DNA of 64,000 bases from Shewanella aestuarii (lineage in GTDB: Bacteria > Pseudomonadota > Gammaproteobacteria > Enterobacterales > Shewanellaceae): positions 2,104,501-2,168,500 of the forward strand of contig NZ_CP050313.1 in the NCBI RefSeq assembly GCF_011765625.1. Reading direction: 5' to 3'. A model generated the notes under the pieces. That model was not told where the DNA came from. It saw only the letters and a list, made by a program, of their open reading frames with translations, and made no database searches. A program made the translations under genes and the position numbers. Below, piece by piece: positions 12,355 to 28,331 of the stretch (its first letter is position 1; every line of letters begins with the position of its first letter).

Positions 12355-13623
12355 TTACATTTTTGAACCTTTCGCGCCGTAAAATAGAATAAAAGCGTAA
12401 CAGACAACCGCAAGTATAAATGAAGGTTGTAATCCCATTGAGTCAGCCAAAACCCCTTGTAACAGGGGTAATATTGCGCCACCAACAATGGCCAAGCATA
12501 AAATGCCTGAGCCTTGAGAAGTGTGTGGACCTAAATCCCGTAACGCTAAACTAAAGATTGTTGGGAACATAATTGAATTGAATAATCCAACTGCCAAAAT
12601 TGACCACATAGCGATAGCCCCTGCGGTATTCATGGCTACCATGACTAACACAGCGGCCATAAAGGCATTAAATGCCAATACCGTTCCTGCGGAAACTTTT
12701 TGCATAATGGCAGAACCAATAAAGCGCCCTACCATTGCACCGCCCCAATAATAAGTAATGTACTTTGCCGCATCAGCTTCTTGTAGGCCGACAATATGCT
12801 CTTCACCTAAAAAGTTAACCAAAAAGCTACCAATTGATACTTCAGCACCGACATAGACAAAAATACCAACCGCACCAAGAACAAGATGTACTGATTGTGT
12901 TGCGCTAGTTTTACCTTTGTGGCTCACTTTGCCGTTTACATCGGCAGGTTCGCTGTGCTCTACAATTTTTGGTAATGATAGTTTTGAAAATATTAATGCC
13001 AGTAAAGCTAACATGCCAGCTAACAATAGGTATGGCATTTTAACCACAGCAGCTTCTGCTTGCGCGTGGGTTAACTCAGCGGTAGCACCAGAAGCGACCG
13101 ATAAAATTAACACCGCACCAAAAAATGGCGCTACCGTTGTACCCAATGCATTAAAAGCTTGGGTAAGATTCAAGCGACTTGAAGCGGTTTCAGCACTGCC
13201 TAATGCATTAACATATGGGTTAGCGGCAACTTGCAAAATGGTAATGCCTGATGCCAGTACAAATAAGGCCCCAAGGAACAATCCATAAACAGCATAATCA
13301 GCAGCAGGATAAAATAGCAAACATCCTAAACTGGCAATCGACAAACCTGTCACAATGCCTTTTTGATAACCAAGCTTTTTAACTAATGATCCAGCAGGTA
13401 GAGACACCAAAAAATATGCACCGAAGAAGCAAAATTGAATCAACATAGCTTCGGTATAACTTAATGAAAAAACTGATTTTAAATGAGGTATTAAAATGTC
13501 ATTTAAACAGGTAATAAATCCCCACATAAAAAACAAAGAAGTCAGCGACACCAGAGCAAAACGATAACTGCCACTATTAACAGGGGCAGCACTGGTGCTG
13601 CTAGTTGAAATTGTAGACGCCAT
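12355..13623 (-). CDS. FucP-family sugar:H+ symporter (probable glucose permease)
   Basis: Major facilitator permease, 422 residues with about 12 membrane helices. The sequence [22 protein letters not shown] near residue 35 and the later [16 protein letters not shown] are typical of the fucose/glucose-galactose (FucP/GluP) family. It lies 104 bp downstream of the cytoplasmic alpha-glucosidase on the same strand and next to the starch operon, so the likely substrate is glucose released in the periplasm by the GH97 and GH15 enzymes; this is inference from context. The N-terminus ([16 protein letters not shown]) is an unusually Ser/Thr-rich soluble tail. No ATACGTAT operator is seen in the 104-bp gap, so it probably shares the alpha-glucosidase promoter. 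Confidence 0.88.
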
Positions 13624-13727: not shown

Positions 13728-15350
13728 TTAGTCGATCAAAGCATAAAAACTAGCATAAGCCGGAAGCTTGATTGCATCATCTTCAATTCGCCCAGCCACT
13801 AAACCATGGTTTTCTAACACGGATGAAATAGCCAAGTTAGACCAATTAAATTCAACATTGGCATTCGAAAGGTTAAACAACACCAGCATGCTTTTATCAG
13901 CTTTAGTGCGTTTAAACGCCAGAATAGCGGGATCGGCATCCAAAAATTCAATATCTCCATCAATTAATAATGGTTGGGTTTTTCGCCATGCTAAAAAGTT
14001 GCGGTAACTATTTAACGTCGAATGTTGATCATCTTGCTGAATATCAACCGCTTTGTCTGCATGTTCACCCGATATAGGTAACCAAGGTTTCACTTGACTA
14101 AAACCTGCTTGCAATTGGGATTTAACCCATGGCATTGGTGTACGGCAACCATCACGACCTTTAAACATTGGCCAAAATGCAATGCCAAAAGGATCTTGCA
14201 GTTCATCATAACTAATGGTGGCTTCGGTTAGGCCAAGCTCTTCACCTTGATAACTGCAAATACTGCCACGTAATGAAAACAACATCGCATTGAGCATTTT
14301 CACCATCGCAGGATCCGTTTCACCTTTGCCCCAACGCGTCGCAACCCGCTGAACATCGTGATTTCCAATAGCCCAACATGGCCAGCCATCACCAATGCTT
14401 GCTTCTAATTCTTCAACCGTTTGACGAATATAAGCTGCACTAAAATCATCAGTTAATAACTCAAAGCTATAGGCCATATGTAATCGGTCATCACCTTGAG
14501 TGTATTCAGCCATGGTGGCTAATGAGTCTTCAGATGATACCTCTCCTAAAGTAACCGCCCCAGGGTATTGATTAATCAGTGCCCGTAACTCTTCAATGAA
14601 CCCGACGGTTTGTGGCCGAGTGTTATTGTAATAATGGTATTGATAAGCATAAGGGTTGTCTTCACTAAACCCTCTACCTTGTCGTTGATCTTTGGGTTTT
14701 GCTGGGTTGTCACGTAATTGCTCGTCGTGATAACAGAACGTAATCGCATCTAACCGGAATCCATCTACGCCCTTTTTCAGCCAAAATTCAACATTGCTTA
14801 GTACGGCTTGGCGTAACTCATCACAATGAAAATTAAGATCGGGCTGGCTTTTCAGAAAATTATGTAAATAGTATTGTTGACGACGCGGTTCCCACTCCCA
14901 AGCGCAACCACCAAATATAGCTAACCAATTATTTGGTGCACTGCCATCCTCTTTAGGATCAGCCCAAACATACCAGTCTGCTTTGGGGTTGTTTCGGCTT
15001 TGACGACTTTCTTCAAACCAAGCGTGTTGATCTGACGTGTGACTTAACACTTGGTCGATGATGATCTTGATATTTAATTCATGGGCTTTAGCAATCAACT
15101 CATCAAAATCTGCCATGGTGCCAAACATTGGGTCAATTTCTAAATAATCACTAATGTCGTAACCAAAGTCTTTCATGGGTGATTTGAAAAAAGGAGATAT
15201 CCAAATCGCATCAACATTTAAGCTAGCAATATAATCAAGCTTTGTAATTATGCCTTGAAGATCTCCGACACCGTCGTCATTCGAATCCATCAAACTTCGC
15301 GGATACACTTGGTAAATAATACCACCCCGCCACCAGTTAACCTGACCCAT
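13728..15350 (-). CDS. Cytoplasmic GH13 alpha-glucosidase (oligo-1,6-glucosidase-like)
   Basis: Hydrolyses terminal alpha-glucosidic bonds of maltose and short maltodextrins after import. The 540-residue protein has no signal peptide and begins WWRGGIIYQVYPRSLMDSNDDGVGDL, as in GH13 subfamilies of alpha-glucosidases. The catalytic triad is visible: nucleophile in GFRLDAITF (about residue 200), acid/base in TLGEVSSED (about 270), and the transition-state stabiliser in IGNHDVQRVATRWG (about 330). A strong AAGGGGA lies 6 bp before the ATG at 15350. It heads a two-gene unit with the FucP-type permease and reads from the promoter with the TGCATACGTATGCA palindrome at 15484. It resembles the GH13_23 type of Halomonas and Alteromonadales; the subfamily is inference. 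Confidence 0.93.
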   Translation of the reverse strand: MGQVNWWRGGIIYQVYPRSLMDSNDDGVGDLQGIITKLDYIASLNVDAIWISPFFKSPMKDFGYDISDYLEIDPMFGTMADFDELIAKAHELNIKIIIDQVLSHTSDQHAWFEESRQSRNNPKADWYVWADPKEDGSAPNNWLAIFGGCAWEWEPRRQQYYLHNFLKSQPDLNFHCDELRQAVLSNVEFWLKKGVDGFRLDAITFCYHDEQLRDNPAKPKDQRQGRGFSEDNPYAYQYHYYNNTRPQTVGFIEELRALINQYPGAVTLGEVSSEDSLATMAEYTQGDDRLHMAYSFELLTDDFSAAYIRQTVEELEASIGDGWPCWAIGNHDVQRVATRWGKGETDPAMVKMLNAMLFSLRGSICSYQGEELGLTEATISYDELQDPFGIAFWPMFKGRDGCRTPMPWVKSQLQAGFSQVKPWLPISGEHADKAVDIQQDDQHSTLNSYRNFLAWRKTQPLLIDGDIEFLDADPAILAFKRTKADKSMLVLFNLSNANVEFNWSNLAISSVLENHGLVAGRIEDDAIKLPAYASFYALID

Positions 15351-15447: not shown

Positions 15448-15497
15448 AGGATACGTGAATAAGGAAATCAGGTTCAATACGCCTGCATACGTATGCA
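15448..15497 (-). promoter_or_regulatory. Alpha-glucosidase promoter with LacI-type operator
   Basis: Read on the minus strand: perfect 14-bp palindrome TGCATACGTATGCA (15484-15497), a 6-bp gap, -35 TTGAAC (15472-15477), an 18-bp spacer and -10 TATCCT (15448-15453). The operator centre is 37.5 bp from the -10. The expected start lies near 15441, giving a leader of about 90 nt. The architecture matches three other promoters in the locus within 1 bp. Confidence 0.72.
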
Positions 15498-15632
15498 ACA
15501 AAATAGAACCAAACACAAACCAGCGTTTAATGGATTTATTTACATATTTACAAAGACTTAAGCGCAATAAAAAAGCCATTAAAACCGTTAAAGAAATGTT
15601 AAATGACATCTAAATTATACTGCCTTAGCTTT

Positions 15633-15681
15633 TGAATACGTATGCATAATATTGTCGGCCAAACAACCCTAGGAGTAGTAT
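15633..15681 (+). promoter_or_regulatory. TonB-receptor promoter with LacI-type operator
   Basis: Operator TGAATACGTATGCA (15633-15646), 5-bp gap, -35 TTGTCG (15652-15657), 18-bp spacer, -10 TAGTAT (15676-15681). The operator centre lies 36.5 bp from the -10. Transcription probably starts near 15688, leaving a leader of about 150 nt. Confidence 0.75.
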
Positions 15682-15713
15682 CATCACCGTTGTGCAACAA
15701 TTTGGTCATAACT

Positions 15714-15743
15714 CCAACGTTTATGCAGTCAATTAAACGTTGG
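15714..15743 (+). promoter_or_regulatory. Perfect hairpin in TonB-receptor leader
   Basis: CCAACGTTTA and TAAACGTTGG form an uninterrupted 10-bp stem around a 10-base loop, about 25 nt into the predicted mRNA. No T-run follows, so it is not a terminator. It may stabilise the 5' end or be a regulatory dyad. Confidence 0.55.
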
Positions 15744-15839
15744 TACAAACACAATAAAGACTGTAACCAAAATCAAAAGGACACTAACAACCAGACCTGG
15801 ACATCAAGTTGTTAAGTATTCGCTAAAGGGGAAAGATGA

Positions 15840-18596
15840 ATGTTGCTATTTAAACCAAGCCTACTAACACTCGCACTTGTTGCTGCTGGCGCAAGCATGA
15901 GCGCTTATGCTGCTGATGAAGTCGACACAGCCAATACTGCAGATGAAAACATTGAAGTGATTAAAGTCACCGGTATACGCCGCAGCTTACAAGAAGCACA
16001 AGCGGTTAAAATGACTAACTCTTCTGTTGTTGAAGCTGTTTCAGCTGAAGATATCGGTAAATTACCAGACGTCAGTATTGCTGAATCACTTGCACGCCTT
16101 CCTGGGGTTGCTGCTCAGCGACTAGATGGTCGTGCAAACGTTGTTTCAATTCGCGGTTTAAGTCCTGATTTCACTATCGCGACCTTGAACGGTCGCGAAC
16201 AAGCGTCAATTAACGACAATCGTGGCGTAGAATTCGACCAATATCCTTCAGAGCTATTAAACTCGGTTGTGGTATATAAAACTCCTGATGCTGCATTAAT
16301 GGCTCAAGCTATTGGCGGCACGGTTGACATGCAAACAATCAGCCCACTTAAACATGGCGAACAAACCTTCGCGATCAACGCTCGTGGTGAGTGGAACGAC
16401 TTAGGTTCTTTAAACGCGGGCTCCGACGATAAAGGCTATCGCGCAAGTGTGTCTTATATAGACCAATTTGCTGACGATACTATCGGTATCGCATTAGGTT
16501 ACTCACGCATGCAGTCACCTAACCAAGAAGAACGCTGGCAAGCATGGGGTTACCCAAACTTAGATTATAACGATGCAAATCCACTCGTACTTGGCGGTGC
16601 TAAACCTTACGTTCGTTCATCAGAATTAGAACGTGATGGTGTTATGGTGGTGTTAGAATTCCAACCAAACGATCAATTCCGATCTGTTGTTGATGTGTTT
16701 TACACTAGTTTTTTTGACCAACAAAGACTAACAGGGATTGAAATACCTGGCCAATGGGGTGCCGGTTGGGCAAATTCTGGTATAACAGCCATTGAAACCG
16801 AAAACGGTTTAGTCACTAAAGGCACTATCAATGATGCTATGGTGCTTGTTCGTAATGATATGAATACCCGTGATGCAGATTCTATTTCTGCAGGCTGGAA
16901 TAATGAATATATCTTCAATGAAAACTGGTCGATTGAAGCAGATGTGGCGATTTCTAAAGTAGAACGTACTGATATTGGTATTGAAACTTATGCGGGTACA
17001 GGTCGCGGTAACGGTAATGGTCAAGTAGAAAACTTAGGCTTTACTTATGATGGCAAAGGCGGTTACATCTTCGAGCCATCACTAAACTATGCTGATCCAG
17101 AATTAATTCGTTTAGGTGGCGCATTTAGTTGGGGACCAGACGCTGAACGCGCGAACTTCCAAGATGGTTTTATCAACAAACCTGAAATTGAAGATGAGTT
17201 ACAATCGTTCCGCTTATCTTCAACTTATTCATTTGATGAAGGTGCGATTAGCAAAATCCAATTTGGTATAAATTATACTAATCGTGAAAAAACTAAAGTA
17301 GATAACGGTTATTATTTAACTCTGAAAGGTTACGATGCAGTAACTAACCCAGATTATATGCTCACGTTACCTAGTCAATATTCAACTGGCTCAACCTCAC
17401 TTGCGTTCTTCGGTATGGGTGATGTGTTATCTTATGATGCACTTCGCTTCTATAAAGATGGCAACTATAACGAATTAAATGCTAAAGAAGTCCAACCAGA
17501 GCGTATCACTAACTCTTGGCAAGTCGAAGAGCAAGTGACCACCTTCTTTGTAAAAGCCGACTTAGACACAGAAGTCGGGGATATTCCTTTAACTGGTAAC
17601 TTTGGAGTTCAAGTAGTTGATACTGATCAAAGTTCAAAGGGTACTGCAGTTTCTAAACTAGATGATGGCACAATTGAGCTTACCCCACGTACAGCGGGTG
17701 ACTCGTATGTGGAATGGTTACCTAGCATCAACTTAGGCTTTGAAGTTGCTGAAAACCAAATGGTTCGTGTTGCAGCTGCACGTACATTAAGCCGTGGCCG
17801 TATGGATCAGATGAATTCAAACATCAACTATACATACAACCCTAATCCTTCTGGTGCAGATCCAAAATGGACTGGCGGTGGTGGTAACCCACAACTACGT
17901 CCTTGGTTAGCGCGTCAGTACGATATCAGCTATGAAAACTACTTTAGCGATATGGGTTACTTCTCTGTTGCCGCTTACTATAAAGATTTAGAAAACTATA
18001 CCTTTAACCAAGATCAGTTTGTTGATTTCTGTACCATTTTACCAAGTGACCCGAACTGTGGTGATGGCCTAGGACGTGTTTCTAGCCCGCAAAATGGTAA
18101 CGGTGGTTATGTACAAGGTATTGAGGCATCGTTATCTATCGACTTTGGTTACTTTACTGAAGTGTTAGATGGCTTTGGTACTATTCTAAACGGTGCTTAT
18201 AACGACTCTGAAGTGAAAGAAACTGACGATAGTGAACCAACTACGCTACCAGGTCTTTCAGAGAAAACCTTTAACGCAACTGTTTACTATGAAAACTCAG
18301 GTTTCCAAGCGCGTATCAGTTCTCGCTACCGTAGTGACTTCTTAGGTGAAGTAACTGCAATCAGCTTAACTCGTGTTAACGTTGATGTTAAAGCAGAAAC
18401 CGTTGTTGATGCACAAATCGGTTATGACTTTAGCGAAAGTGGTATTGACGCACTATATGGTCTATCAGTGGTATTCCAAGTGAACAACTTAACTAACGAA
18501 CCATTTACCACATATCTTGGTGATGATGAGCGTCTAGTTCGTGACTACCAAAACTATGGTCGCAACTTCATGTTTGGTGCGAACTACAAGTTCTAA
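15840..18596 (+). CDS. TonB-dependent outer-membrane receptor for maltodextrins
   Basis: Energised outer-membrane transporter, 918 residues. A signal peptide (ALVAAGASMSAYA, cleaved about residue 24) precedes a TonB-box-like stretch (IEVIKVTGIRRSL), the plug domain (about 55-170, including SIAESLARLPGVAAQR and VVSIRGLSPDFTIATLNGR) and a beta-barrel ending in NYKF, the aromatic C-terminus needed for barrel assembly. It belongs to the Caulobacter/Xanthomonas-type TonB-receptor subfamily (TIGR01782-like), which includes maltose receptors. Substrate assignment rests on the neighbouring amylases and glucosidases and the shared operator. The ATG at 15840 lies 8 bp after AGGGGA; an overlapping ATG at 15836 opens only five codons. 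A terminator follows, so the downstream genes are expressed by read-through or from a separate promoter. Confidence 0.92.
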   Translation: MLLFKPSLLTLALVAAGASMSAYAADEVDTANTADENIEVIKVTGIRRSLQEAQAVKMTNSSVVEAVSAEDIGKLPDVSIAESLARLPGVAAQRLDGRANVVSIRGLSPDFTIATLNGREQASINDNRGVEFDQYPSELLNSVVVYKTPDAALMAQAIGGTVDMQTISPLKHGEQTFAINARGEWNDLGSLNAGSDDKGYRASVSYIDQFADDTIGIALGYSRMQSPNQEERWQAWGYPNLDYNDANPLVLGGAKPYVRSSELERDGVMVVLEFQPNDQFRSVVDVFYTSFFDQQRLTGIEIPGQWGAGWANSGITAIETENGLVTKGTINDAMVLVRNDMNTRDADSISAGWNNEYIFNENWSIEADVAISKVERTDIGIETYAGTGRGNGNGQVENLGFTYDGKGGYIFEPSLNYADPELIRLGGAFSWGPDAERANFQDGFINKPEIEDELQSFRLSSTYSFDEGAISKIQFGINYTNREKTKVDNGYYLTLKGYDAVTNPDYMLTLPSQYSTGSTSLAFFGMGDVLSYDALRFYKDGNYNELNAKEVQPERITNSWQVEEQVTTFFVKADLDTEVGDIPLTGNFGVQVVDTDQSSKGTAVSKLDDGTIELTPRTAGDSYVEWLPSINLGFEVAENQMVRVAAARTLSRGRMDQMNSNINYTYNPNPSGADPKWTGGGGNPQLRPWLARQYDISYENYFSDMGYFSVAAYYKDLENYTFNQDQFVDFCTILPSDPNCGDGLGRVSSPQNGNGGYVQGIEASLSIDFGYFTEVLDGFGTILNGAYNDSEVKETDDSEPTTLPGLSEKTFNATVYYENSGFQARISSRYRSDFLGEVTAISLTRVNVDVKAETVVDAQIGYDFSESGIDALYGLSVVFQVNNLTNEPFTTYLGDDERLVRDYQNYGRNFMFGANYKF

Positions 18597-18611
18597 CTTG
18601 AATATGACAAT

Positions 18612-18644
18612 AAAGCCTCTGTAACCTGTTACAGGGGCTTTTTT
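18612..18644 (+). terminator. Terminator between TonB receptor and halogenase
   Basis: GC-containing stem (AAAGCCTCTGTAA / TTACAGGGGCTTT with one G-T pair) followed by T6, 16 bp after the receptor stop and 36 bp before the halogenase. It would let the receptor be made in excess over the downstream enzymes. Confidence 0.85.
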
Positions 18645-18679
18645 ACTTTAAAAAACAATAAAATTGTAAGGCGATTACT

Positions 18680-20185
18680 ATGAATAATAACAAAATAAAA
18701 GACATTGTAATTGTAGGCGGCGGGACCTCAGGTTGGATGACCGCGGCAATGCTTTCAAAACTATATCCTTCTCAGCTTGACATTACTTTGGTTGAATCTG
18801 ACACCATCGGCACCATTGGTGTAGGAGAAGCCACTATCCCGCCACTGCAAATTTTTAATAATGTATTAGGAATTAACGAACAAGATTTTATTCACCAAAC
18901 TCAAGCGACGATAAAACTTGGGATCCAATTTGAAAATTGGGGCAAATTAGGTGATAAATACATGCATGCCTTTGGCGAGTTTGGTAAAGATATTGGCTAT
19001 ACTGCCTTTCATCATTACTGGTTAGCCGATAACCCTGATCCTAAATCGTTATGGGATTACTCATTTAACTACCAAGCGGCTATTCAAGGTAAGTTTTCCC
19101 CCACGCCTCGTATTCACAATAATCAACTTGCAGGGCTTACCCATGCCTATCATTTCGATGCAGGGCTTTATGCCAAACTGCTGCGCGAATACAGCATTGA
19201 AAAAGGCGTTAACCGCATTGAAGGTAAAGTGAGTCAAGTGAATCAAGATGAGCATGAATTCATCACCTCCCTCACCCTAGAAAACGGTAACACTGTTGCG
19301 GGCGATTTGTTTATTGACTGTTCAGGCTTACATGGAGTGTTACTCGATAAAGTATATAAGGTAGGGTTTGACAGTTATCAGCATTGGCTACCTTGTGATA
19401 GCGCATGGGCGGTTCCTTGTGAAAAAGTCGAGCCAATTATCCCCTATACCCGCTCAATTGCCCATAAAAATGGTTGGCAATGGCGCATTCCACTTCAGCA
19501 CCGAACTGGTAATGGGCTAGTGTTTGCAAGCAGTAAAATGTCAGATGCGGATGCAAAACAACTGCTTCTTGATAACCTTGATGCTCCAGCCATTGGCGAG
19601 CCACGATTAATTCGTTTTACGCCGGGTCGTCGTCAACAGCAATGGGTGAAAAATTGTGTTGCAATTGGCTTATCTTCAGGATTTTTAGAGCCTTTAGAGT
19701 CCACCAGCATTCATTTAGTGCAAACAGCCATTATCCGCTTAACCAAATTAATGCCCCATGCTCAAATCAATCCGTCGCTGATTGATGAGTATAACCGTCA
19801 AGCCAAACTAGAGTTTGAGCAAATTCGTGACTTTATTATTTTGCATTATCACTTAAATCATCGCGCAGATAGTTGTGAAACAGATAATAGCGACGATATT
19901 TGGCAAGCTTGCCGCGAAATGGACATTCCTGAATCGCTACAGCAAAAAATTGCCCTATTCAAAGACACAGGCAATTTATTTAGGCAGCAAGAAAATCTCT
20001 TTACCAATGAGGCGTGGCTACAAGTCATGGTCGGGCAAGGCATCATTCCTGAAGATTATAACCCCCTTGCAAATGTGATAACTAACGCACAAAGGCTTGA
20101 GTTTTTGGCCAATCTAAAAGCGATCTATGCGCAAAACTTATCTCAGATCACAAGCCATCAACAGTTTTTATCTACTTGTGGCTAG
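18680..20185 (+). CDS. Flavin-dependent halogenase family protein (tryptophan-halogenase-like)
   Basis: 501-residue FAD protein of the PrnA/RebH family, which uses FADH2, O2 and halide to form HOCl or HOBr and halogenate an aromatic. The family hallmarks are present: the dinucleotide motif VGGGTSGW (12-19), GVGEATIP (48-54), the catalytic lysine at position 79 (ATIKLGIQF, same number as in PrnA), WQWRIP (266-271, the WxWxIP halogenase motif) and the Glu-Ser pair at 340-341 (PLESTSI), equivalent to PrnA Glu346-Ser347. There is no signal peptide, so it is cytoplasmic. It lies 22 bp before a periplasmic GH13 gene, in one operon. Relatives next to TonB receptors (BrvH of Brevundimonas, Xanthomonas enzymes) brominate free indole in vitro, but natural substrates are unknown. 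Its role in starch use cannot be stated. Confidence 0.9.
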   Translation: MNNNKIKDIVIVGGGTSGWMTAAMLSKLYPSQLDITLVESDTIGTIGVGEATIPPLQIFNNVLGINEQDFIHQTQATIKLGIQFENWGKLGDKYMHAFGEFGKDIGYTAFHHYWLADNPDPKSLWDYSFNYQAAIQGKFSPTPRIHNNQLAGLTHAYHFDAGLYAKLLREYSIEKGVNRIEGKVSQVNQDEHEFITSLTLENGNTVAGDLFIDCSGLHGVLLDKVYKVGFDSYQHWLPCDSAWAVPCEKVEPIIPYTRSIAHKNGWQWRIPLQHRTGNGLVFASSKMSDADAKQLLLDNLDAPAIGEPRLIRFTPGRRQQQWVKNCVAIGLSSGFLEPLESTSIHLVQTAIIRLTKLMPHAQINPSLIDEYNRQAKLEFEQIRDFIILHYHLNHRADSCETDNSDDIWQACREMDIPESLQQKIALFKDTGNLFRQQENLFTNEAWLQVMVGQGIIPEDYNPLANVITNAQRLEFLANLKAIYAQNLSQITSHQQFLSTCG

Positions 20186-20207
20186 CCATAAGATATTAGG
20201 AGTCTAT

Positions 20208-22097
20208 ATGAAATCTTTTCTTAAACTTAGCCTACTCTGTGCAAGCATCAGTTTTAGTTTTGTAGCAACTCATGCAAACGCCCTTGACAATTCGATTCAA
20301 GACTTTGCTGTTGAACCGCAATTTTGGTGGGCAGAAATGCACAACAGTCAGTTGCAACTGCTTATTTATGGTAAAGATATTGCCAAACACCAAATTAAGC
20401 TTAAACAAGGCAAGAAGGTAAAACTTGTCAAGGTTGATACCACGGACAGCCACAATCATGTGTTTGTAACCCTTGATTTAAAAGGCGCATCACCTCAAAC
20501 CGTATCCTTTGATATTATCGATAATAATAAAGTCATTGGTCAGTTTGATTATCAATTACTCAAACGCGCAGCCAATTCAGCTAAGCGTGTGGGTTTTAAC
20601 AATCAGGATGTCATTTATCTTATAACGCCCGACAGGTTTGTGAATGGCGATATATCTAACGATAATCACCCAGATATGCTTGAAAAGATCAATCCTGACT
20701 TACCAGATTATGGCGGTCGCTTTGGCGGTGATATCGCAGGTATTAAACAAGCACTGCCTTATTTAAAAGATTTAGGTGTCACCCAGCTTTGGATTAACCC
20801 TCTGCTTGAAAATAATCACGAAAAGTACTCCTACCATGGGTATTCCACTACCGATTATTATCAAATTGACCCTCGTTTTGGCACCAATGAAGACTATAAA
20901 GCCCTCGTTAAAGCGGCAAATGATCATGGCATCGGCGTGATTAAAGATGTGGTGGTTAACCATATTGGTTCAAATCACCCATGGATGTCTAATTTTCCAA
21001 GTAGCACTTGGATTAACGGCCAAGGTAAACCTGATCAAGAACAAGTTTATACCAGTCATCATCGCACCACAGTGCAAGACCTCTACGCCACCAAGATTGA
21101 TAGATCTGAATTTGAAGAGGGCTGGTTTGTGCCAACCATGCCCGATCTTAATCAGCGCGATCCTCACCTTGCCACCTATTTAATTCAAAACAGTATTTGG
21201 TGGGTTGAATATGCAGGTCTATCAGGTATTCGTGAAGATACCTATTCCTATGCTGACAAAGCCTTTTTAGCCAAGTGGGGCAAAGCCATTATGGATGAAT
21301 ACCCAAGCTTTAATATTGTGGGTGAAGAATGGAGCGAAAACCCCATCACTATTAGCTATTGGCAACAAGGTAAAGTGAACCACGATGGCTATCAATCATT
21401 TACTCCGAGCATGATGGACTTCCCGATTGCTGAAATGTTGCATAAAAGTCTCACTCACACCGATCCCAATAAAGGGCTAATGGATTTATATGAGATGCTC
21501 GCTAACGATGTGGTGTATGCCGACCCAACAAAACTTGTGCTATTTGAAGGCAATCATGACACTAACCGTATTTATAGCCTATTGAATGAGGATTTTGGGC
21601 TTTATCAAATGGCAATAGCGTATGTGCTTACCAGTAATCGTATTCCGCAGATTTTTTACGGCACAGAAGTGTTAATGACAAGTCCTAAAGAAGGCCGCCA
21701 TGATGGAGTGGTGCGTAGTCCCTTCCCGGGCGGGTTTGCAGGTGACACGGTTAATGCCTTGACCGGTCAAGGGTTAAACAGTGCCCAAAAAGCGGCGCAG
21801 CATTTTATTAAAACCTTACTGAATTATCGCAAGCATTCTAAAGCAATTAGCCAAGGCTCCCTTGCCCACTATGTACCTAAAGATGGTGTATATGTTCAAT
21901 TTAGACAATTTAAAGATGAAAACCTAATGGTCATTTATCACTTAGGCGAGCACACCACAAAACTTGATTTGAACCGCTTTAACGAGCACATAAAAGGTGC
22001 CAAACAAGGCCGCAGTATTATCTCTCAGCATACGTATTCATTAGACAAACTACTCACTTTATCGCCTAAAAGTGTCACTATGCTGTCGATAAAATAA
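20208..22097 (+). CDS. Periplasmic GH13 cyclomaltodextrinase / neopullulanase-type amylase
   Basis: 629-residue exported GH13 enzyme, probably cleaving cyclodextrins or linear maltodextrins in the periplasm, like SusA. The signal peptide (LLCASISFSFVATHANA, about residues 9-26) is followed by an N-terminal beta-sandwich (VEPQFWWAEMHNSQLQLLIYG, cyclomaltodextrinase N-domain type). The catalytic barrel shows region I VIKDVVVNH, region II GIREDTYSY (nucleophile Asp), region III VGEEWSENP (acid/base Glu) and region IV EGNHDTNR, and a C-terminal beta-domain follows. The open frame extends upstream to 20127 into the halogenase, but ATG 20208 has AGGAG at 6 bp and begins a proper signal peptide. The next gene starts 16 bp after the stop. 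An ATACGTAT match lies inside its end (22027-22040). Confidence 0.9.
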   Translation: MKSFLKLSLLCASISFSFVATHANALDNSIQDFAVEPQFWWAEMHNSQLQLLIYGKDIAKHQIKLKQGKKVKLVKVDTTDSHNHVFVTLDLKGASPQTVSFDIIDNNKVIGQFDYQLLKRAANSAKRVGFNNQDVIYLITPDRFVNGDISNDNHPDMLEKINPDLPDYGGRFGGDIAGIKQALPYLKDLGVTQLWINPLLENNHEKYSYHGYSTTDYYQIDPRFGTNEDYKALVKAANDHGIGVIKDVVVNHIGSNHPWMSNFPSSTWINGQGKPDQEQVYTSHHRTTVQDLYATKIDRSEFEEGWFVPTMPDLNQRDPHLATYLIQNSIWWVEYAGLSGIREDTYSYADKAFLAKWGKAIMDEYPSFNIVGEEWSENPITISYWQQGKVNHDGYQSFTPSMMDFPIAEMLHKSLTHTDPNKGLMDLYEMLANDVVYADPTKLVLFEGNHDTNRIYSLLNEDFGLYQMAIAYVLTSNRIPQIFYGTEVLMTSPKEGRHDGVVRSPFPGGFAGDTVNALTGQGLNSAQKAAQHFIKTLLNYRKHSKAISQGSLAHYVPKDGVYVQFRQFKDENLMVIYHLGEHTTKLDLNRFNEHIKGAKQGRSIISQHTYSLDKLLTLSPKSVTMLSIK

Positions 22098-22113
22098 ATA
22101 AGAAGAAGTCATC

Positions 22114-24048
22114 ATGAAAAGTATTATGTCCTTATCTAAGTTAAGCCCCATAGGCTTAGTCATGTTAATTGGATGCTCACCCTCTTATGACACCAGTCAG
22201 GCGCAACAGGTAGAAGCATCAAACAAGCAAACCTTGGCACAGGCTGAATCATCTTTACCTCATAAAGCGGTGGTATACCAAGTGTTCACTCGTCTTTACG
22301 GTAATACTAATACCACCAATAAGCCTTGGGGCACGATAGATGAAAACGGCGTGGGTAAATTCAGCGATTTTACCGATATCGCCCTTAAAGATATTAAATC
22401 GTTAGGCGTGACCCATGTGTGGTATACAGGTGTACCCCATCATGCAGTGATTAATGATTACACTCAGATTGGGATCAGTAATGATGATCCTGATGTGGTT
22501 AAAGGTCGTGCAGGCTCGCCCTATGCGGTAAAGGATTATTACAATGTCAATCCCGATCTGGCCGATAACCCCGCCAACCGTTTAGCCGAGTTTGAATCGC
22601 TTATCGCTCGTACTCATCAAAATGGTATGAAAGTCCTCATAGATATTGTCCCTAATCATGTGGCCCGTAATTACCAATCACTCTCTGCCCCTGAGGGCGT
22701 AGAAGATTTTGGCTTTAGTGATGACAACACCGTAGAATACGCCAAAAATAATGACTTTTATTATGTAATTGGCCAAGATTTTAGCGTACCTGATGCCATT
22801 AATGGTTACCAAGCTTTAGGCGGTGAAGCACATCCGCTTAGCGATGGTCAATTTAAAGAGTCACCTGCTAAATGGACCGGTAATGGCTCTCGCCTTGCCA
22901 AACCTGATGCCAATGACTGGTATGAAACGGTAAAAATCAATTATGGCGTTAAACCAGATGGTAGCTATGACTTCCCTCGCCTGCCCGCTGGTTTTGAGCA
23001 TAAGTCAGCCGCCGAACATTACCAATTTTGGCAACAACAAGACGCTAAAGATATTCCAAACTCATGGCGTAAGTTTGAACACATTGCGCAATATTGGTTG
23101 GCTAAAGGTGTTGATGGTTTTCGATATGACATGGCCGAAATGGTCCCGGTTGAGTTTTGGAGTTATTTAAATAGCCATATAAAACATGCTAAAACTGACG
23201 CCTTTTTATTAGCTGAGGTGTATAACCCTAACTTATACCGCGCTTATATTCAGCAAGGTAAAATGGATTATCTGTATGATAAAGTTGATTTATACGACAC
23301 CTTAAAAGCAATCATTCACGATAAAAAATCGACGGCTCAAATTGCTGTGGACCAAGCAAAAGTCGCCGATATTGAAGCGCATATGCTGCATTTTTTAGAA
23401 AATCATGATGAGCAGCGGATAAACTCCCCAGATTTTGCAGGCACACCGGAAGCAGCCTTACCTGCGATGGTAGTTTCAACCCTTATTAGCCGTTCACCAA
23501 CACTAGTGTATTTTGGTCAAGATGTGGGTGAACCAGCTCGAGAAAACGGCGGTTTTGGCCAAGCCACACGAACGAGTATTTTTGATTATGTAGGGGTGCC
23601 AGCCCATCAACGCTGGATGAATAACGGCAAGTTTGATGGCGGCCAGTCTACAGAACAAGAAAAGGCGCTGCGTGATTATTATCAACGATTGTTAAACTTG
23701 AGCCATAGCGCACCTGCGCTAAAAGGCGAGTATCAAGAATTAGACACCTATCAACGTAAGCAAAATGTGGTTGGTTATGATAATAAAGTATTTGCTTTCA
23801 GCCGTTTTAGTGAACAACAAAAAATGCTGGTGATCAGCAATTTTGACCAACACAACGGTAAGCAATTTAGTTTAACCTTGCCGCAATCATTATTAAAGGC
23901 TTGGCAATTTAATCATACTGAAACTCAATATATGCATGATGTATTGAGCCAGATACAAGTTGTCTATCCTATTGAAACTCAAGCTGATGGCACAGCTAAG
24001 CTTGAAATTACCCTAGCGCCACTACAATCAATGGTAATGGTTCTTTAA
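22114..24048 (+). CDS. Lipoprotein alpha-amylase (GH13)
   Basis: 644-residue GH13 amylase that cuts internal alpha-1,4 bonds in starch or maltodextrin. The N-terminus (LGLVMLIGC-type lipobox, MLIGC, Cys near residue 21, Ser at +2) predicts an outer-membrane lipoprotein sorted by the Lol system. The catalytic barrel contains region I VLIDIVPNH, region II GFRYDMAEM (nucleophile), region III FLLAEVYNP (acid/base) and region IV FLENHDEQR. A C-terminal beta domain follows (about 550-640). It is the last gene of the halogenase-GH13-GH13 operon, followed by a strong terminator. AAGAAG precedes the ATG at 22114. Surface or periplasmic-face orientation cannot be told from sequence. Confidence 0.9.
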   Translation: MKSIMSLSKLSPIGLVMLIGCSPSYDTSQAQQVEASNKQTLAQAESSLPHKAVVYQVFTRLYGNTNTTNKPWGTIDENGVGKFSDFTDIALKDIKSLGVTHVWYTGVPHHAVINDYTQIGISNDDPDVVKGRAGSPYAVKDYYNVNPDLADNPANRLAEFESLIARTHQNGMKVLIDIVPNHVARNYQSLSAPEGVEDFGFSDDNTVEYAKNNDFYYVIGQDFSVPDAINGYQALGGEAHPLSDGQFKESPAKWTGNGSRLAKPDANDWYETVKINYGVKPDGSYDFPRLPAGFEHKSAAEHYQFWQQQDAKDIPNSWRKFEHIAQYWLAKGVDGFRYDMAEMVPVEFWSYLNSHIKHAKTDAFLLAEVYNPNLYRAYIQQGKMDYLYDKVDLYDTLKAIIHDKKSTAQIAVDQAKVADIEAHMLHFLENHDEQRINSPDFAGTPEAALPAMVVSTLISRSPTLVYFGQDVGEPARENGGFGQATRTSIFDYVGVPAHQRWMNNGKFDGGQSTEQEKALRDYYQRLLNLSHSAPALKGEYQELDTYQRKQNVVGYDNKVFAFSRFSEQQKMLVISNFDQHNGKQFSLTLPQSLLKAWQFNHTETQYMHDVLSQIQVVYPIETQADGTAKLEITLAPLQSMVMVL

Positions 24049-24081
24049 TTTGACGACCAAGCTAGCATGAATCCACTTAGT

Positions 24082-24109
24082 TAACCTGAGCTGTGGATAA
24101 AAGATTAGC
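24082..24109 (+). repeat. Solo copy of MITE-like element end
   Basis: 28 bases match the left end of the element at 43129-43326 with three differences (TAACCTGA-R-CTG-Y-GGATAA-R-AGATTAGC). No matching right end was found nearby, so this is a remnant or solo terminal repeat. Confidence 0.55.
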
Positions 24110-24112
24110 CCT

Positions 24113-24147
24113 AATGCCCTGATCATCTATCAGGGCATTGTTGTTTT
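24113..24147 (+). terminator. Terminator of the halogenase-amylase operon
   Basis: A perfect 11-bp stem (AATGCCCTGAT / ATCAGGGCATT) with a 5-base loop, followed by the T-rich GTTGTTTT, 64 bp after the amylase stop. Confidence 0.85.
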
Positions 24148-24205
24148 AAAGCCAGATATGACCAATCGTGATAAATAGCCAATAACAAGGTGAATTTGTA
24201 TTGAC

Positions 24206-24254
24206 TGAATACGTATGTATTTCTTTGCGGTTGAGTCTTAAAGCGGCATATATT
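24206..24254 (+). promoter_or_regulatory. GH97 promoter with LacI-type operator
   Basis: Operator TGAATACGTATGTA (24206-24219), 5-bp gap, -35 TTGCGG (24225-24230), 18-bp spacer, -10 TATATT (24249-24254). The operator centre lies 36.5 bp from the -10. The leader is short, about 30 nt. Confidence 0.75.
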
Positions 24255-24291
24255 CCTTAACAACAAAAACAATAATCAACAAGGATGCCTC

Positions 24292-26370
24292 ATGATCCAA
24301 CATCACACTAAGATTGCCTTTAACCCCTGTAAACTGGCCATTTCATGCGCAGTTGCGTTATCTTATGCGGCGTTGATGCCTAATGCCCATGCAAAAACAG
24401 TCACTGTGAGTTCACCAGACAAACAAATAAACATTCAACTTTCAGATGATAATGGTCGTCCTGAATATCAAGTCAGTTTTAAAGGTGAAACCGTCGTTAA
24501 CCCAAGTCGTTTAGGGATAGTATTCAAGCAAGTAGGAGAATTAGGTGAAGGACTCACCATTAGCCAATTCACTCAACACACTGACGACAATACTTGGCAA
24601 CAACCTTGGGGAGAACGAGAATTTATTCGCGATCATCATAACGCCATCATCGCGACACTCACCAATGGCAAGATTAATATTGATGTTGAATTTAAAGCCT
24701 TTAATGATGGGATTGGTTTTCGTTATTTGGTTCCCAAACAAACTGGGCTAGCACAATATAGCACGCTAGATATTACCCAAGAGCTCACTGAATTTAGCCT
24801 ACCGGATCCCCATCACACCACTGCTTGGTGGATCCCAGGTCGAGGCTGGAATCGCTACGAATACTTATATAACACCACCTCATTGGCTAAAGTTGATCGC
24901 GCTCATACACCGTTTACCGCCAAGCTGACCACAGGAACCCATTTAAGCATCCACGAAGCAGCATTAACGGATTATGCGGCCATGGTGCTCGATCAACGTC
25001 GAGATGGTACCTTCAGAGCCGATTTAACTCCTTGGTCTGATGGCATACTGGTAAAAACGCAACCCGGCTTTACTACCCCATGGCGCACCATTCAAATTGG
25101 CTCAACAGCCACCGATTTACTTAATTCAGATTTAATTTTAAACCTCAACGAGCCCAATAAACTTGGCGACGTATCTTGGGTTAAACCCGGTAAATACATA
25201 GGTATTTGGTGGGCAATGCATGTTAACGAAAAAACATGGGGCTCAGGTGACAAACATGGCGCAACCACATCAGAAACTATTCGCTATATGGATTTTGCCG
25301 CAAAATACGGTTTTGATGGCGTATTGGTTGAGGGTTGGAATGAAGGCTGGGATGGCAGCTGGTTCCATAATGGTGATGTATTTAGCTTTACCAAAACCTA
25401 TCCTGACTTCGATATTAACGCCATCAGTGAATATGGTAAAAAGCACAATGTACGTTTAATTGGTCATCACGAAACCTCAGGCTCGGTCACCAATTATCGT
25501 CAGCAAATGAGCAAAGCATATGATTTGTATCAACAACATGGCGTAACTCAAATTAAAACAGGCTACGTCGCCGATGGTGGAGATATTAAACGGATAGATG
25601 ATCAAGGGATCACCCGCCATGAATGGCATGATGGCCAATTTATGGTAAATGAATACTTGCACAGTGTCACCGAGGCCGCTCAACGCGGGATAAGCATTAA
25701 TACCCACGAACCGGTTAAAGATACTGGCCTGCGTCGTACTTATCCTAATTGGATTGCCCGCGAAGGTGCGCGCGGTCAAGAGTACAATGCTTGGGGAACA
25801 CCGCCCAATAATCCTGAACATACCGCCATTTTGCCATATACCCGAATGTTATCAGGGCCAATGGACTTTACTCCCGGGGTTTTTAATCTTGCACCACAAG
25901 GCTTAGATGCCGTAAATAGGGTGCAAACCACGCTGATGAAGCAACTAGCCCTCTATGTTGTTTTATACAGCCCTATTCAAATGGCTGCAGATTTACCGCG
26001 CAATTATGTTGAGCGCCTCGATGCCTTCCAATTTATTTTAGATGTCCCCACAGATTGGAGCGATTCAAAAGCCATTGCCGGAGAAGTGGGTGATTTTGTG
26101 GTGTTTGCTCGCAAACAACGCCACAGTGAAGACTGGTTTTTAGGTGGGTTAACCGACGAAAATGCTCGCAGTATCGATATCAAGTTAGATTTTTTAGAAC
26201 CTAATATTCAATACATAGCTCAAATATATCGTGATGGTGATGAAGCCGACTGGTTAACTAACCCATATGATTATGTTATTGAGCAGAAAAACGTAACCGC
26301 AAACGACAAAGTTATGTTAAAAATGGCACCAAGTGGCGGAGTCGCAATTCGGCTTAAAGCGACTAAATAA
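24292..26370 (+). CDS. susB: Periplasmic GH97 alpha-glucosidase (SusB-like)
   Basis: Exo-acting alpha-glucosidase that releases glucose from maltooligosaccharides in the periplasm. The 692-residue precursor has a signal peptide ending AHA (about residue 34), an N-terminal beta-super-sandwich (GH97_N, about 40-300), a TIM barrel (TWGSGDKHGATTSETIRYMDFAAKYGFDGVLVEGWN onwards) and a C-terminal beta domain. The signature INTHEPVKDTGLRRTYPNW (about 468-487) carries a catalytic Glu. The strand KTGYV, rather than KxDF, suggests the inverting SusB type; that is inference from family knowledge. It has its own promoter with the shared operator, and the permease gene follows after 366 bp. Identification is strong. 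Confidence 0.93.
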   Translation: MIQHHTKIAFNPCKLAISCAVALSYAALMPNAHAKTVTVSSPDKQINIQLSDDNGRPEYQVSFKGETVVNPSRLGIVFKQVGELGEGLTISQFTQHTDDNTWQQPWGEREFIRDHHNAIIATLTNGKINIDVEFKAFNDGIGFRYLVPKQTGLAQYSTLDITQELTEFSLPDPHHTTAWWIPGRGWNRYEYLYNTTSLAKVDRAHTPFTAKLTTGTHLSIHEAALTDYAAMVLDQRRDGTFRADLTPWSDGILVKTQPGFTTPWRTIQIGSTATDLLNSDLILNLNEPNKLGDVSWVKPGKYIGIWWAMHVNEKTWGSGDKHGATTSETIRYMDFAAKYGFDGVLVEGWNEGWDGSWFHNGDVFSFTKTYPDFDINAISEYGKKHNVRLIGHHETSGSVTNYRQQMSKAYDLYQQHGVTQIKTGYVADGGDIKRIDDQGITRHEWHDGQFMVNEYLHSVTEAAQRGISINTHEPVKDTGLRRTYPNWIAREGARGQEYNAWGTPPNNPEHTAILPYTRMLSGPMDFTPGVFNLAPQGLDAVNRVQTTLMKQLALYVVLYSPIQMAADLPRNYVERLDAFQFILDVPTDWSDSKAIAGEVGDFVVFARKQRHSEDWFLGGLTDENARSIDIKLDFLEPNIQYIAQIYRDGDEADWLTNPYDYVIEQKNVTANDKVMLKMAPSGGVAIRLKATK

Positions 26371-26441
26371 CAATAACTTATACATTAACGATAACGCTAA
26401 ACATGTAACCAAAATGTACCAACAAAGTTGCCTAAAAACGA

Positions 26442-26490
26442 TGAATACGTATGTATTTAGTTGTGTCAATCCAGACCACAAGGCTACTAT
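26442..26490 (+). promoter_or_regulatory. Permease promoter with LacI-type operator
   Basis: Operator TGAATACGTATGTA (26442-26455, identical to the GH97 site), 5-bp gap, -35 TTGTGT (26461-26466), 18-bp spacer, -10 TACTAT (26485-26490). The operator centre lies 36.5 bp from the -10. Confidence 0.75.
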
Positions 26491-26621
26491 AAAACCTGCT
26501 AATTTCACTCTCTGCTTGTGGAGATGAAAGGGCTAGGTCGTTTCTGATACCTATCCAGCCATGGGGAAGTATCAGCTTTAGAGTACCTCGATTAACTTTG
26601 TTTGGCACTTTGCGAGATAAA

Positions 26622-26678
26622 GGTATTAGGTCATTGGCGAATACCCGTCTTAGGGAGATGTGTATTCGCCATTTTTTT
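26622..26678 (+). promoter_or_regulatory. Candidate transcription attenuator in permease leader
   Basis: An intrinsic terminator (TGGCGAATAC 26635-26644 / GTATTCGCCA 26662-26671, 17-base loop, T7) lies 58 bp before the permease ATG. An upstream segment GGTATT (26622-26627) can instead pair with AATACC (26640-26645), which would break the 5' arm of the terminator. Terminator and anti-terminator are therefore mutually exclusive. It does not match any riboswitch class I recognise. Confidence 0.6.
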
Positions 26679-26736
26679 ATCTATCGATTTAGCAATAAAA
26701 GTAAGTCATCAACTTACTCACTATATAGGAAGATCC

Positions 26737-28299
26737 ATGTCGGCTGATAACAATAATCAACAAGACCGTATACAGCAAAACCAGCACATCCAACCGCAAT
26801 TAAGCTTTTGGCAAATATTCAATATGTGCTTTGGTTTTTTAGGCATTCAATTTGGCTTTGCGTTGCAAAATGCCAATGTCAGTCGTATTTTTCAAACCTT
26901 GGGTGCAGAAATAGATGAAATCCCCATTCTTTGGATTGCCGCCCCACTGACAGGGCTAATCGTACAACCAATTATTGGTTATTTAAGTGATAATACTTGG
27001 AACTGGTTAGGACGACGCCGCCCCTATTTTCTTGTTGGTGCAGTATTCACAACCCTCTCTCTATTTATCATGCCGCACTCACCTACTCTGTGGATTGCCG
27101 CAGGTATGTTATGGATTATGGATGCATCGATTAACATTGCTATGGAGCCATTTCGTGCCTTTGTCGGCGACAACCTACCACAAAAACAGCGCACCACTGG
27201 CTATGCAATGCAAAGCTTCTTTATTGGTATTGGTGCGGTCATCGCATCTGCACTGCCCTACGTTTTAACTAACTATTTTGACGTGGCTAATACCGCGCCA
27301 GCAGGTGAAATTGCAGATTCTGTGCGCTATGCCTTCTATTTTGGTGGCGCGGTGTTATTTCTTGCCGTCGGTTGGACCATTGTCAGCTCGAAAGAATACT
27401 CGCCAGAGGAGCTGGCTAAATACCATCAACACGAGAGTCAGCAACAAACAATACCTTCTACGCATCAACGTAGCAGCACTCAATACCGTTTAGGCGCGAT
27501 GATTTGGATGACGATTGGTGCAGTATTTACTACGGCTATTATCACTCAAGAATTAGATAAGCAGCTGTATATATTAAGTTTAGGTATATTTTGTTTTGGC
27601 CCTTTACAGCTGCTGTGTTCATTCAAGCTTAAGCATAACCAAACTAGAGATCGCAGTGAGCTAGGTATGCTATTTAATGTGGTAGATGATTTGTTCCACA
27701 TGCCTAAAGCAATGCGTCAGTTAGCGGTAGTACAATTTTTTGCATGGTTTGCATTATTTGCCATGTGGATATACACCACAGCTGCAGTAACCTCGCACCA
27801 TTACGGCACTACCGATGTGGTATCACAAGCCTATAACGACGGTGCAGATTGGGTCGGAATGTTATTTGCGTCTTACAACGGATTTGCCGCTGTTGCAGCC
27901 ATTATTATCCCCTTTTTAGCAAAAGCAGTGGGAATAAAACTGACTCATACCATCAATATGTTTATTGGTGGCATTGGGTTAATTAGTTTCTACTTTATCA
28001 CTGACCCTTCACTATTGTGGCTGCCGATGATTGGGGTGGGCTTTGCTTGGGCATCCATTTTATCTGTGCCATATGCCATGTTATCGGGTGTGATCCCACC
28101 AACTAAAATGGGCGTGTATATGGGTATTTTCAACTTCTTTATTGTGATCCCGCAACTGCTGGCCGCAAGCATTTTGGGGTTATTACTCAAGTTATTTTTT
28201 GATGGTCAACCAATTTATGCCGTTGTGCTAGGCGGGGTATTTATGATCATCTCAGGTATTGCCGTGCTATTTGTTGAACAAAATAATAAAACACAATAA
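26737..28299 (+). CDS. SLC45/GPH-like sugar:H+ symporter (probable maltose/maltodextrin permease)
   Basis: 520-residue major facilitator protein with 12 predicted helices. The stretches GFALQNANVSRIFQTLGAEI, IGYLSDNTWNWLGRRRPYFLVG and MLSGVIPPTKMGVYMGIFNFFIVIPQ are typical of the sucrose/maltose symporters related to SLC45. In Alteromonadales such genes sit in maltodextrin loci, so maltose or maltotriose is the likely substrate. The product would feed the cytoplasmic alpha-glucosidase. The frame is open from 26602, but ATG 26737 has TATAGGAAG at the right distance and starts a soluble tail before the first helix. It is followed after 32 bp by the GH15 gene, probably one transcript. Control by both operator and attenuator is suggested. 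Confidence 0.88.
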   Translation: MSADNNNQQDRIQQNQHIQPQLSFWQIFNMCFGFLGIQFGFALQNANVSRIFQTLGAEIDEIPILWIAAPLTGLIVQPIIGYLSDNTWNWLGRRRPYFLVGAVFTTLSLFIMPHSPTLWIAAGMLWIMDASINIAMEPFRAFVGDNLPQKQRTTGYAMQSFFIGIGAVIASALPYVLTNYFDVANTAPAGEIADSVRYAFYFGGAVLFLAVGWTIVSSKEYSPEELAKYHQHESQQQTIPSTHQRSSTQYRLGAMIWMTIGAVFTTAIITQELDKQLYILSLGIFCFGPLQLLCSFKLKHNQTRDRSELGMLFNVVDDLFHMPKAMRQLAVVQFFAWFALFAMWIYTTAAVTSHHYGTTDVVSQAYNDGADWVGMLFASYNGFAAVAAIIIPFLAKAVGIKLTHTINMFIGGIGLISFYFITDPSLLWLPMIGVGFAWASILSVPYAMLSGVIPPTKMGVYMGIFNFFIVIPQLLAASILGLLLKLFFDGQPIYAVVLGGVFMIISGIAVLFVEQNNKTQ

Positions 28300-28331
28300 T
28301 TCAGTAAGATAACAATGAAATGGGGATATTA

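Follow-up and report, generated by a model that had tools for sequence, protein, structure and literature searches.

Does MalR, a protein of the LacI family, activate or repress the starch-use genes of Shewanella aestuarii? The question is raised by a 64,000-nt window of this genome (GCF_011765625.1, NZ_CP050313.1 2,104,501-2,168,500; all coordinates below are window positions), in which four copies of a palindrome precede the units of a starch locus. We propose, with a probability of roughly 0.8, that MalR binds the palindrome at one fixed distance, constant to within one base, before five promoters and activates them through contact with RNA polymerase. The regulon and the idea of activation are already in print, whereas the strict promoter architecture, a leader RNA preceding malT and a locked spacing between two divergent operators are new as far as our search of the literature extends.

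The core of the palindrome, ATACGTAT, occurs six times in the window where 0.82 copies are expected, a number reached in none of 100 shuffled sequences. A previous sequence-only reading had located four of these (at 15484, 15633, 24206 and 26442) before sugar-locus units, each separated by 5 bp, or by 6 bp at malZ, from a TTG hexamer that is followed by an 18-bp spacer. The positions and the spacing are borne out by the sequence, and the -10 is of the form TANNNT in all four cases. Each palindrome precedes a plausible sigma-70 promoter directed into a starch-use unit:

15484-15497, no strand assigned: predicted MalR operator of the malZ-glcP promoter, a perfect 14-bp palindrome
15472-15477, minus strand: -35 of malZ-glcP, TTGAAC, 6 bp from the operator
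15448-15453, minus strand: -10 of malZ-glcP, TATCCT, 30 bp from the operator
15633-15646, no strand assigned: predicted MalR operator of the omp promoter
15652-15657, plus strand: -35 of omp, TTGTCG
15676-15681, plus strand: -10 of omp, TAGTAT
24206-24219, no strand assigned: predicted MalR operator of the susB promoter
24225-24230, plus strand: -35 of susB, TTGCGG
24249-24254, plus strand: -10 of susB, TATATT
26442-26455, no strand assigned: predicted MalR operator of the malT promoter
26461-26466, plus strand: -35 of malT, TTGTGT
26485-26490, plus strand: -10 of malT, TACTAT

In full, the promoters read TGCATACGTATGCA-6-TTGAAC-18-TATCCT for malZ on the minus strand and, on the plus strand, TGAATACGTATGCA-5-TTGTCG-18-TAGTAT for omp, TGAATACGTATGTA-5-TTGCGG-18-TATATT for susB and TGAATACGTATGTA-5-TTGTGT-18-TACTAT for malT. 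The window background for a TTG at 5 bp is 0.026, for TANNNT at 29 bp 0.020 and for both 0.00046, with the sites themselves counted in. The two remaining cores (8730 and 22030) lie inside coding DNA, and the one at 22030 has no TANNNT 29 bp away on either side. The genome has a fifth exact site beyond the window, which played no part in deriving the rule and obeys it, with 5-TTGTTA-18-TAGTAT before a gene for a TonB receptor (omp2); there is a single exact site at each of susB, malT and omp2, and only the divergent omp/malZ pair has two close operators. A scan for consensus promoters listed none of the four promoters, nor the malT terminator described below, and returned 33 promoter-like sites in the window compared with 53.1 in shuffled sequences. 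The four promoters have weak -35 boxes. Having missed them and found fewer sites than in shuffled sequences, the scan was not used.

Two features of the sites themselves were also seen. The four asymmetric operators of this genome (15633-15646, 24206-24219, 26442-26455 and that of locus L187; L and G numbers are labels of compared loci and genomes) share one orientation, the TGAAT half being distal and the ATGCA/ATGTA half lying on the promoter side. At malZ, the -10 is contained in a conserved CACGTAT(C/G)CT (15448-15457) that repeats part of the operator and may give MalR an additional, weak contact across the core promoter.

How far does the geometry extend beyond this genome? The susA gene is present in 77 of 129 Shewanella genomes, and 76 neighbourhoods were compared together with the window. 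Orthologs were accepted at 60% identity (55% for malZ), which retained 46 of the 76 omp matches, and the geometry counts refer to distinct promoter sequences, duplicates having been removed beforehand. The operator was found in all 75 malZ and all 46 omp upstream regions, in 29 of 30 susB orthologs and, within the scanned stretch, in 34 of 38 malT orthologs. Among the four malT orthologs without a site in that scan, L169 and L174 have one too near the extrapolated gene start, L166 has one further upstream with unchanged spacing, and none was found in L177. A TTG follows the operator by 5 bp in every omp (46/46), susB (28/28) and malT (34/34) promoter, and TANNNT stands at 29 bp in 46/46, 28/28 and 31/34 of them. 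At malZ both elements are displaced, with TTG 6 bp and TANNNT 30 bp from the operator in 69/74 each and both together in 68/74; in L144 the -10 is one base nearer. The joint one-base shift of TTG and -10 at malZ shows the TTG to be part of the promoter, not of the operator. In every promoter type, both hexamers are among the best-conserved positions once the operator itself is set aside.

Two sets lying outside the original comparison follow the same rule. For the omp2 receptor 30 loci were compared (30 of 53 genomes matched), and all 30 have the operator with TTG at 5 bp, 29 of them with TANNNT at 29 bp. Similarly, 35 malT loci that were found through the leader RNA and are absent from the first malT set have TTG at 5 bp (35/35) and TANNNT at 29 bp (33/35). 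The scan of related Shewanella genomes that the sequence-only reading had suggested as a check thus finds the fixed spacing at omp, susB, malT and malZ and at the out-of-sample omp2. A weak control with a NagR-like motif, its genes judged by their N-termini and open reading frame lengths, gave 0 of 10 sides of five sites with TTG at 5-6 bp plus TANNNT at 29-30 bp.

GTT direct repeats on an 11-bp lattice lie upstream of two of the operators. Counted from the operator start, malT has three of them (-37, -26 and -15; 26405-26429) and omp2 two (-15 and -4; L299-L328). They resemble the ArcA consensus GTTAATTAAATGTTA (PMC6761289, available to us in part, as were all publications cited here; what we report of them refers to those parts). 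The pattern TGTTA-N6-TGTTA was matched at 9-10 of its 10 positions in 24 of 29 omp2 loci (0.9% of shuffles) and in 5 of 62 malT loci (0.4%), and at 8 or more positions in 35 of 62 malT loci as compared with 2.9% of shuffles.

Which protein binds these sites? The likely binder is encoded within the window:

33445-34479, minus strand: malR, LacI-family regulator

The MalR protein matches PF00356 at 53.4 bits and PF13377 at 107 bits, both above the cut-off, corresponding to the LacI helix-turn-helix and a sugar-binding domain. The combination operator-N5-TTG is found in 81 of 129 genomes, comprising all 79 in which malR was called (E<=1e-80) and 2 of the 50 in which it was not, whereas the reversed pattern is found in none of the 129. 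The two malR-negative carriers have the combination at G013:C8:152768-152789 and G014:C93:9929-9950. A maltodextrin regulon of a LacI-type MalR was predicted by Rodionov in 2010, with sites before omp, malZ-glcP, susB and malT-cga (PMC2996990), and the sites predicted here stand before the same four units; the available text of that report gives neither the distance between site and promoter nor the operator spacing nor a leader RNA. MalR is thus likely to bind the palindromes, as its predicted domains, its co-occurrence with them and the published regulon suggest, and the choice of this gene as binder in the sequence-only reading is supported.

As to the sign of regulation, the promoter geometry is evidence for activation that is independent of fitness data, since a fixed phase between site and promoter combined with a minimal -35 is what an activator touching the polymerase would need. 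Assuming a transcription start some 7 bp downstream of the -10, the operator would be centred at -48.5 (-49.5 at malZ), just upstream of a -35 that is conserved mainly as TTG, and from this adjoining site bound MalR would touch RNA polymerase. Loss of MalR would then lower expression, as published fitness data imply: in S. loihica malR and malT show a cofitness of 0.94, rank 1, with similar patterns in two more species, and from this positive cofitness Sagawa 2017 regarded MalR as a likely activator, though RegPrecise lists a repressor (PMC5443562). Activation is therefore supported and not new, having been inferred from fitness in 2017; that report, in the part available, gives no promoter geometry. 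The activating LacI regulator put forward from the sequence gains support from these mutants as well as from the constant distance to the -10 that five promoter types share. Of the argument then offered for it, the statement that a repressor site normally overlaps the core promoter holds only as a tendency.

What does the malT promoter transcribe? Whereas the mechanical open reading frame list starts malT with the TTG at 26602, the start codon is the ATG at 26737, and the promoter at 26461-26490 therefore has a leader of about 240 nt, most of which is occupied by an element that the sequence-only reading had missed:

26496-26678, plus strand: conserved leader RNA, predicted to be structured (model R1)
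26635-26678, plus strand: intrinsic terminator, a long hairpin carrying the nearly invariant GUCUNAGGGAG at its top and followed by seven T

The leader folds with a z score of -4.2 and scores 170.3 bits with a covariance model built from 26 leaders. R1 extends to the T run on its 3' side; its 5' boundary was placed manually directly behind the -10, and the model is therefore silent on the transcription start site. It finds exactly one copy each in 62 of the 129 genomes, and all 62 copies have the operator with TTG at 5 bp upstream and malT downstream; TANNNT is at 29 bp in 59 of them and one base nearer in the other three. Seventeen malR genomes had no match in this first pass, and comparison of the region in 16 of them gave five weaker matches, two of these only at E 0.002 and 0.006, bringing the total to 67 of 79. 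Among 295 sampled genomes of the order, searched with stricter filters, all 16 matches were in Shewanella and none in 98 other genera. Left out of the RNA alignment before counting were A2, L163, L170, the short-leader loci, the duplicate L184 and also L153, L160, L164 and L175, these last being aligned apart. Changes on both sides of a pair occur in 136 cells versus 28.6 after shuffling, a count favoured by the fitting of the alignment to the model; by helix, such changes are seen in 0 of 4, 2 of 3 and 4 of 5 pairs and in 10 of 13 pairs of the terminator. In 27 loci taken from the best matches, the RNA has a mean pairwise identity of 0.775, compared with 0.546 for the spacer that follows and 0.638 for the 100 bp preceding the operator.

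Searching window positions 13500-36000 against Rfam gave no match near a gathering score; three matches up to E 5, including a permuted tmRNA (E 0.31, 26252-26357, inside susB), lie far below the gathering scores and were discarded as chance. The main texts of PMC2659441 and PMC5471319 do not contain the words maltose, sugar or symporter, and the supplement of the former, with 166 predicted Shewanella leader RNAs, may include the malT leader. In the literature searched, the RNA appears to be new. The signs of a translated leader peptide, as a peptide-controlled attenuator would have, are weak: open reading frames of at least 10 codons (starting with ATG, GTG or TTG) begin at one column of the alignment in 48 of 62 leaders; the examples shown have 10-23 codons, and the frame in the window differs, with 7 codons. 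Between the terminator and the ribosome site there is a small hairpin, AGTAAGT...ACTTACT (26700-26718), found with differing sequence in several relatives and perhaps a stabiliser of the 5' end.

We suggest that the malT promoter would first produce an RNA of about 180 nt, predicted to be structured and ending at the terminator, with malT itself expressed by read-through, and that the terminated RNA would likely accumulate as a starch-induced small RNA. That the leader instead serves as a switch in cis for malT, be it a riboswitch or an attenuator, is a serious contender to which we give somewhat less than even odds: the nucleotides of the internal loop and the terminator loop are nearly invariant between covarying stems, and all 62 copies found precede malT, yet classical attenuation was rejected as a candidate when no conserved antiterminator was found. 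With the 3' arm of the terminator removed, the partners of its 5' arm scatter among the leaders listed, and the mean pairing probability exceeds 0.7 in only 14 of 62 leaders. A small RNA has a precedent in Vibrio, in which Vsr217 is derived from the 5' UTR (untranslated region) of malK, depends on MalT, aids malK in cis and represses fbp in trans (PMC8265627). The malT leader RNA likely parallels Vsr217, the two being likened by description and not by sequence: both originate in the 5' UTR of a gene for a maltose transporter, under the control of a maltose activator. The regulator of Vsr217 is the MalT protein, the gene is another one and there is no Rho-independent terminator, whereas the Shewanella RNA has a strong one.

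The divergent omp and malZ promoters show a second feature that had escaped the sequence-only reading, as their operators stand back to back with a spacer that is conserved in length and not in sequence:

15498-15632, no strand assigned: 135-bp spacer between the two operators

The distance between the operators is 148-151 bp in 70 of 75 genomes and exactly 149 bp in 49 of them, which is about 14.2 turns at 10.5 bp. Among these 49 the mean ungapped identity of the 135 bp is 0.40, with 697 of 1176 pairs below 40%, and the distances from operator to gene vary by tens of bases. A length kept while the sequence drifts suggests helical phasing or looping; two bound MalR dimers would interact over a DNA loop or keep one helical phase. 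The five exceptions (L177, 86 bp; L174, 289; L169, 292; L181, 304; L179, 311) are the same loci in which the malZ rule fails. Within the diverged spacer there is an island, ACAAAGACTTAAG (15550-15562), part of a conserved central ACAANNANTTAA, which we take to be close to the core of the IHF consensus.

The locked spacing also bears on whether MalR works as a two-way switch that without sugar represses, for instance by a loop between the divergent operators, and with sugar bound activates. We regard this as possible and rather unlikely. The constancy of 148-151 bp in spite of the diverged sequence and the operator-like ACGTAT over the malZ -10 agree with it, and the restriction of close operator pairs to this one divergent region speaks against it. 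So does the protein: its alignment stops at LacI residue 328 of 360 and MalR ends 7 residues later, at its residue 344, without the C-terminal tetramer helix of LacI. Without this helix a loop would need other contacts.

Several observations weigh against activation by the fixed architecture as we propose it. PMC5443562 puts MalR binding more than 300 bp ahead of the malT transcription start. This is at odds with the malT promoter described here, unless the mapped 5' end represents an additional start or results from processing; release of a small RNA at the terminator with read-through into malT would also reconcile a 5' end near the gene. In this genome, an operator-like site with one mismatch precedes an amylase-like gene without a -10 at 29 bp. 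The malZ rule fails in L169, L174, L177, L179 and L181, which have the most diverged MalR of all 79 (54-64% identity). Helix 1 of the leader RNA has no both-side change in its four pairs, and 12 of the 79 malR genomes gave no RNA match; six of their leaders were inspected, of which L163 and L170 have the site and no convincing RNA and L169, L174, L179 and L181 are short. Outside the genus, a search that returned mostly Bacteroidetes contributed 14 non-Shewanella loci out of 80. Of the 26 exact sites in these loci, 12 show TANNNT at 28-30 bp on one side, where the window background predicts about 3, and a second cluster stands at 25 bp; sites of Rheinheimera and Alishewanella do not fit the spacing rule. 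Most of Shewanella thus keeps strictly to the rule, which loosens beyond the genus.

Most sugar-responsive LacI proteins are repressors, and MalR might be a plain one that, from its upstream site, gets in the way of an activator bound upstream or of the contact made by the alpha subunit. The RegPrecise annotation reported in PMC5443562 and the ArcA-like repeats directly upstream of the operators at malT and omp2 would agree with this. We consider it improbable in view of the positive cofitness of malR with malT in S. loihica and the similar patterns in two species (PMC5443562), the single phase across five promoter types and the finding that no operator lies within 450 bp before malR itself in the 12 loci examined. 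Improbable, too, is that TTG and TANNNT form no working promoter and that transcription begins elsewhere, for malT next to the gene, as the published distance of more than 300 bp (PMC5443562) would have it and as the hand-set boundary of R1 does not contradict, given that the hexamers are so conserved and shift together at malZ and that the terminator ends 58 nt before the malT ATG in the window, leaving little room for another promoter.

Activation by a LacI-family protein, as we propose for MalR, is known from other systems. Cra/FruR of E. coli acts as an activator from just upstream of the -35. It activates gluconeogenic genes (PMC4052901); it is a global regulator of both signs, whereas MalR here has one phase and a small local regulon. 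In Enterococcus faecium the LacI-family protein MdxR is needed for expression of maltodextrin genes, which resembles the role proposed for MalR, and it differs in being a Firmicute protein acting on mdxABCD-pulA (PMC3737153). As the main text of that report does not contain the words activator, promoter or binding site, there is no geometry of MdxR sites to compare.

The genes served by these promoters belong to the Shewanella Mal locus of Rodionov 2010, from which malT, malZ and susB take their names (PMC2996990). Family searches assign a GH13 enzyme and a glucose/galactose transporter of the major facilitator superfamily (MFS) to the leftward unit and, rightward, a TonB receptor, a halogenase-like protein, two GH13-related enzymes, the susB enzyme, a GPH symporter and a GH15 enzyme:

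12355-13623, minus strand: glcP, glucose/galactose MFS transporter (TIGR01272)
13728-15350, minus strand: malZ, GH13, alpha-amylase-family glucosidase type
15840-18596, plus strand: omp, TonB-dependent receptor (TIGR01782)
24292-26370, plus strand: susB, GH97 type; matches the retaining alpha-galactosidase model NF053844 at 297 bits of 800, below cut-off
26737-28299, plus strand: malT, GPH-type sugar symporter
28320-30791, plus strand: cga, GH15 glucodextranase/glucoamylase

The halogenase-like gene within the locus (18680-20185) shows a weak match to flavin-dependent halogenases (41 bits, far below cut-off). Matches to it were found in 50 of the 77 sequences compared, a set of which contig ends truncate a part.

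Beyond activation itself, one may imagine a single LacI-family activator of one architecture that drives the starch regulon together with a small RNA of a new class, made from the 5' leader of the sugar symporter gene and ended by a terminator, which would have evolved independently along the lines of Vsr217, with the paired divergent operators forming a phase-locked loop of 14 turns; as a whole this picture is tentative and doubtful. Proteins of the LacI family are often filed as repressors from their sequence alone, as RegPrecise did for MalR, and a fixed phase between operator and promoter across a genus offers a test of regulatory sign that needs sequence only and could change the classification of untested LacI regulators. 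With the leader RNA it becomes testable whether the leaders of sugar transporters repeatedly yield small RNAs that retune central metabolism, and the length-locked divergent operators provide a natural series for the study of looping by a LacI protein without the tetramer helix.

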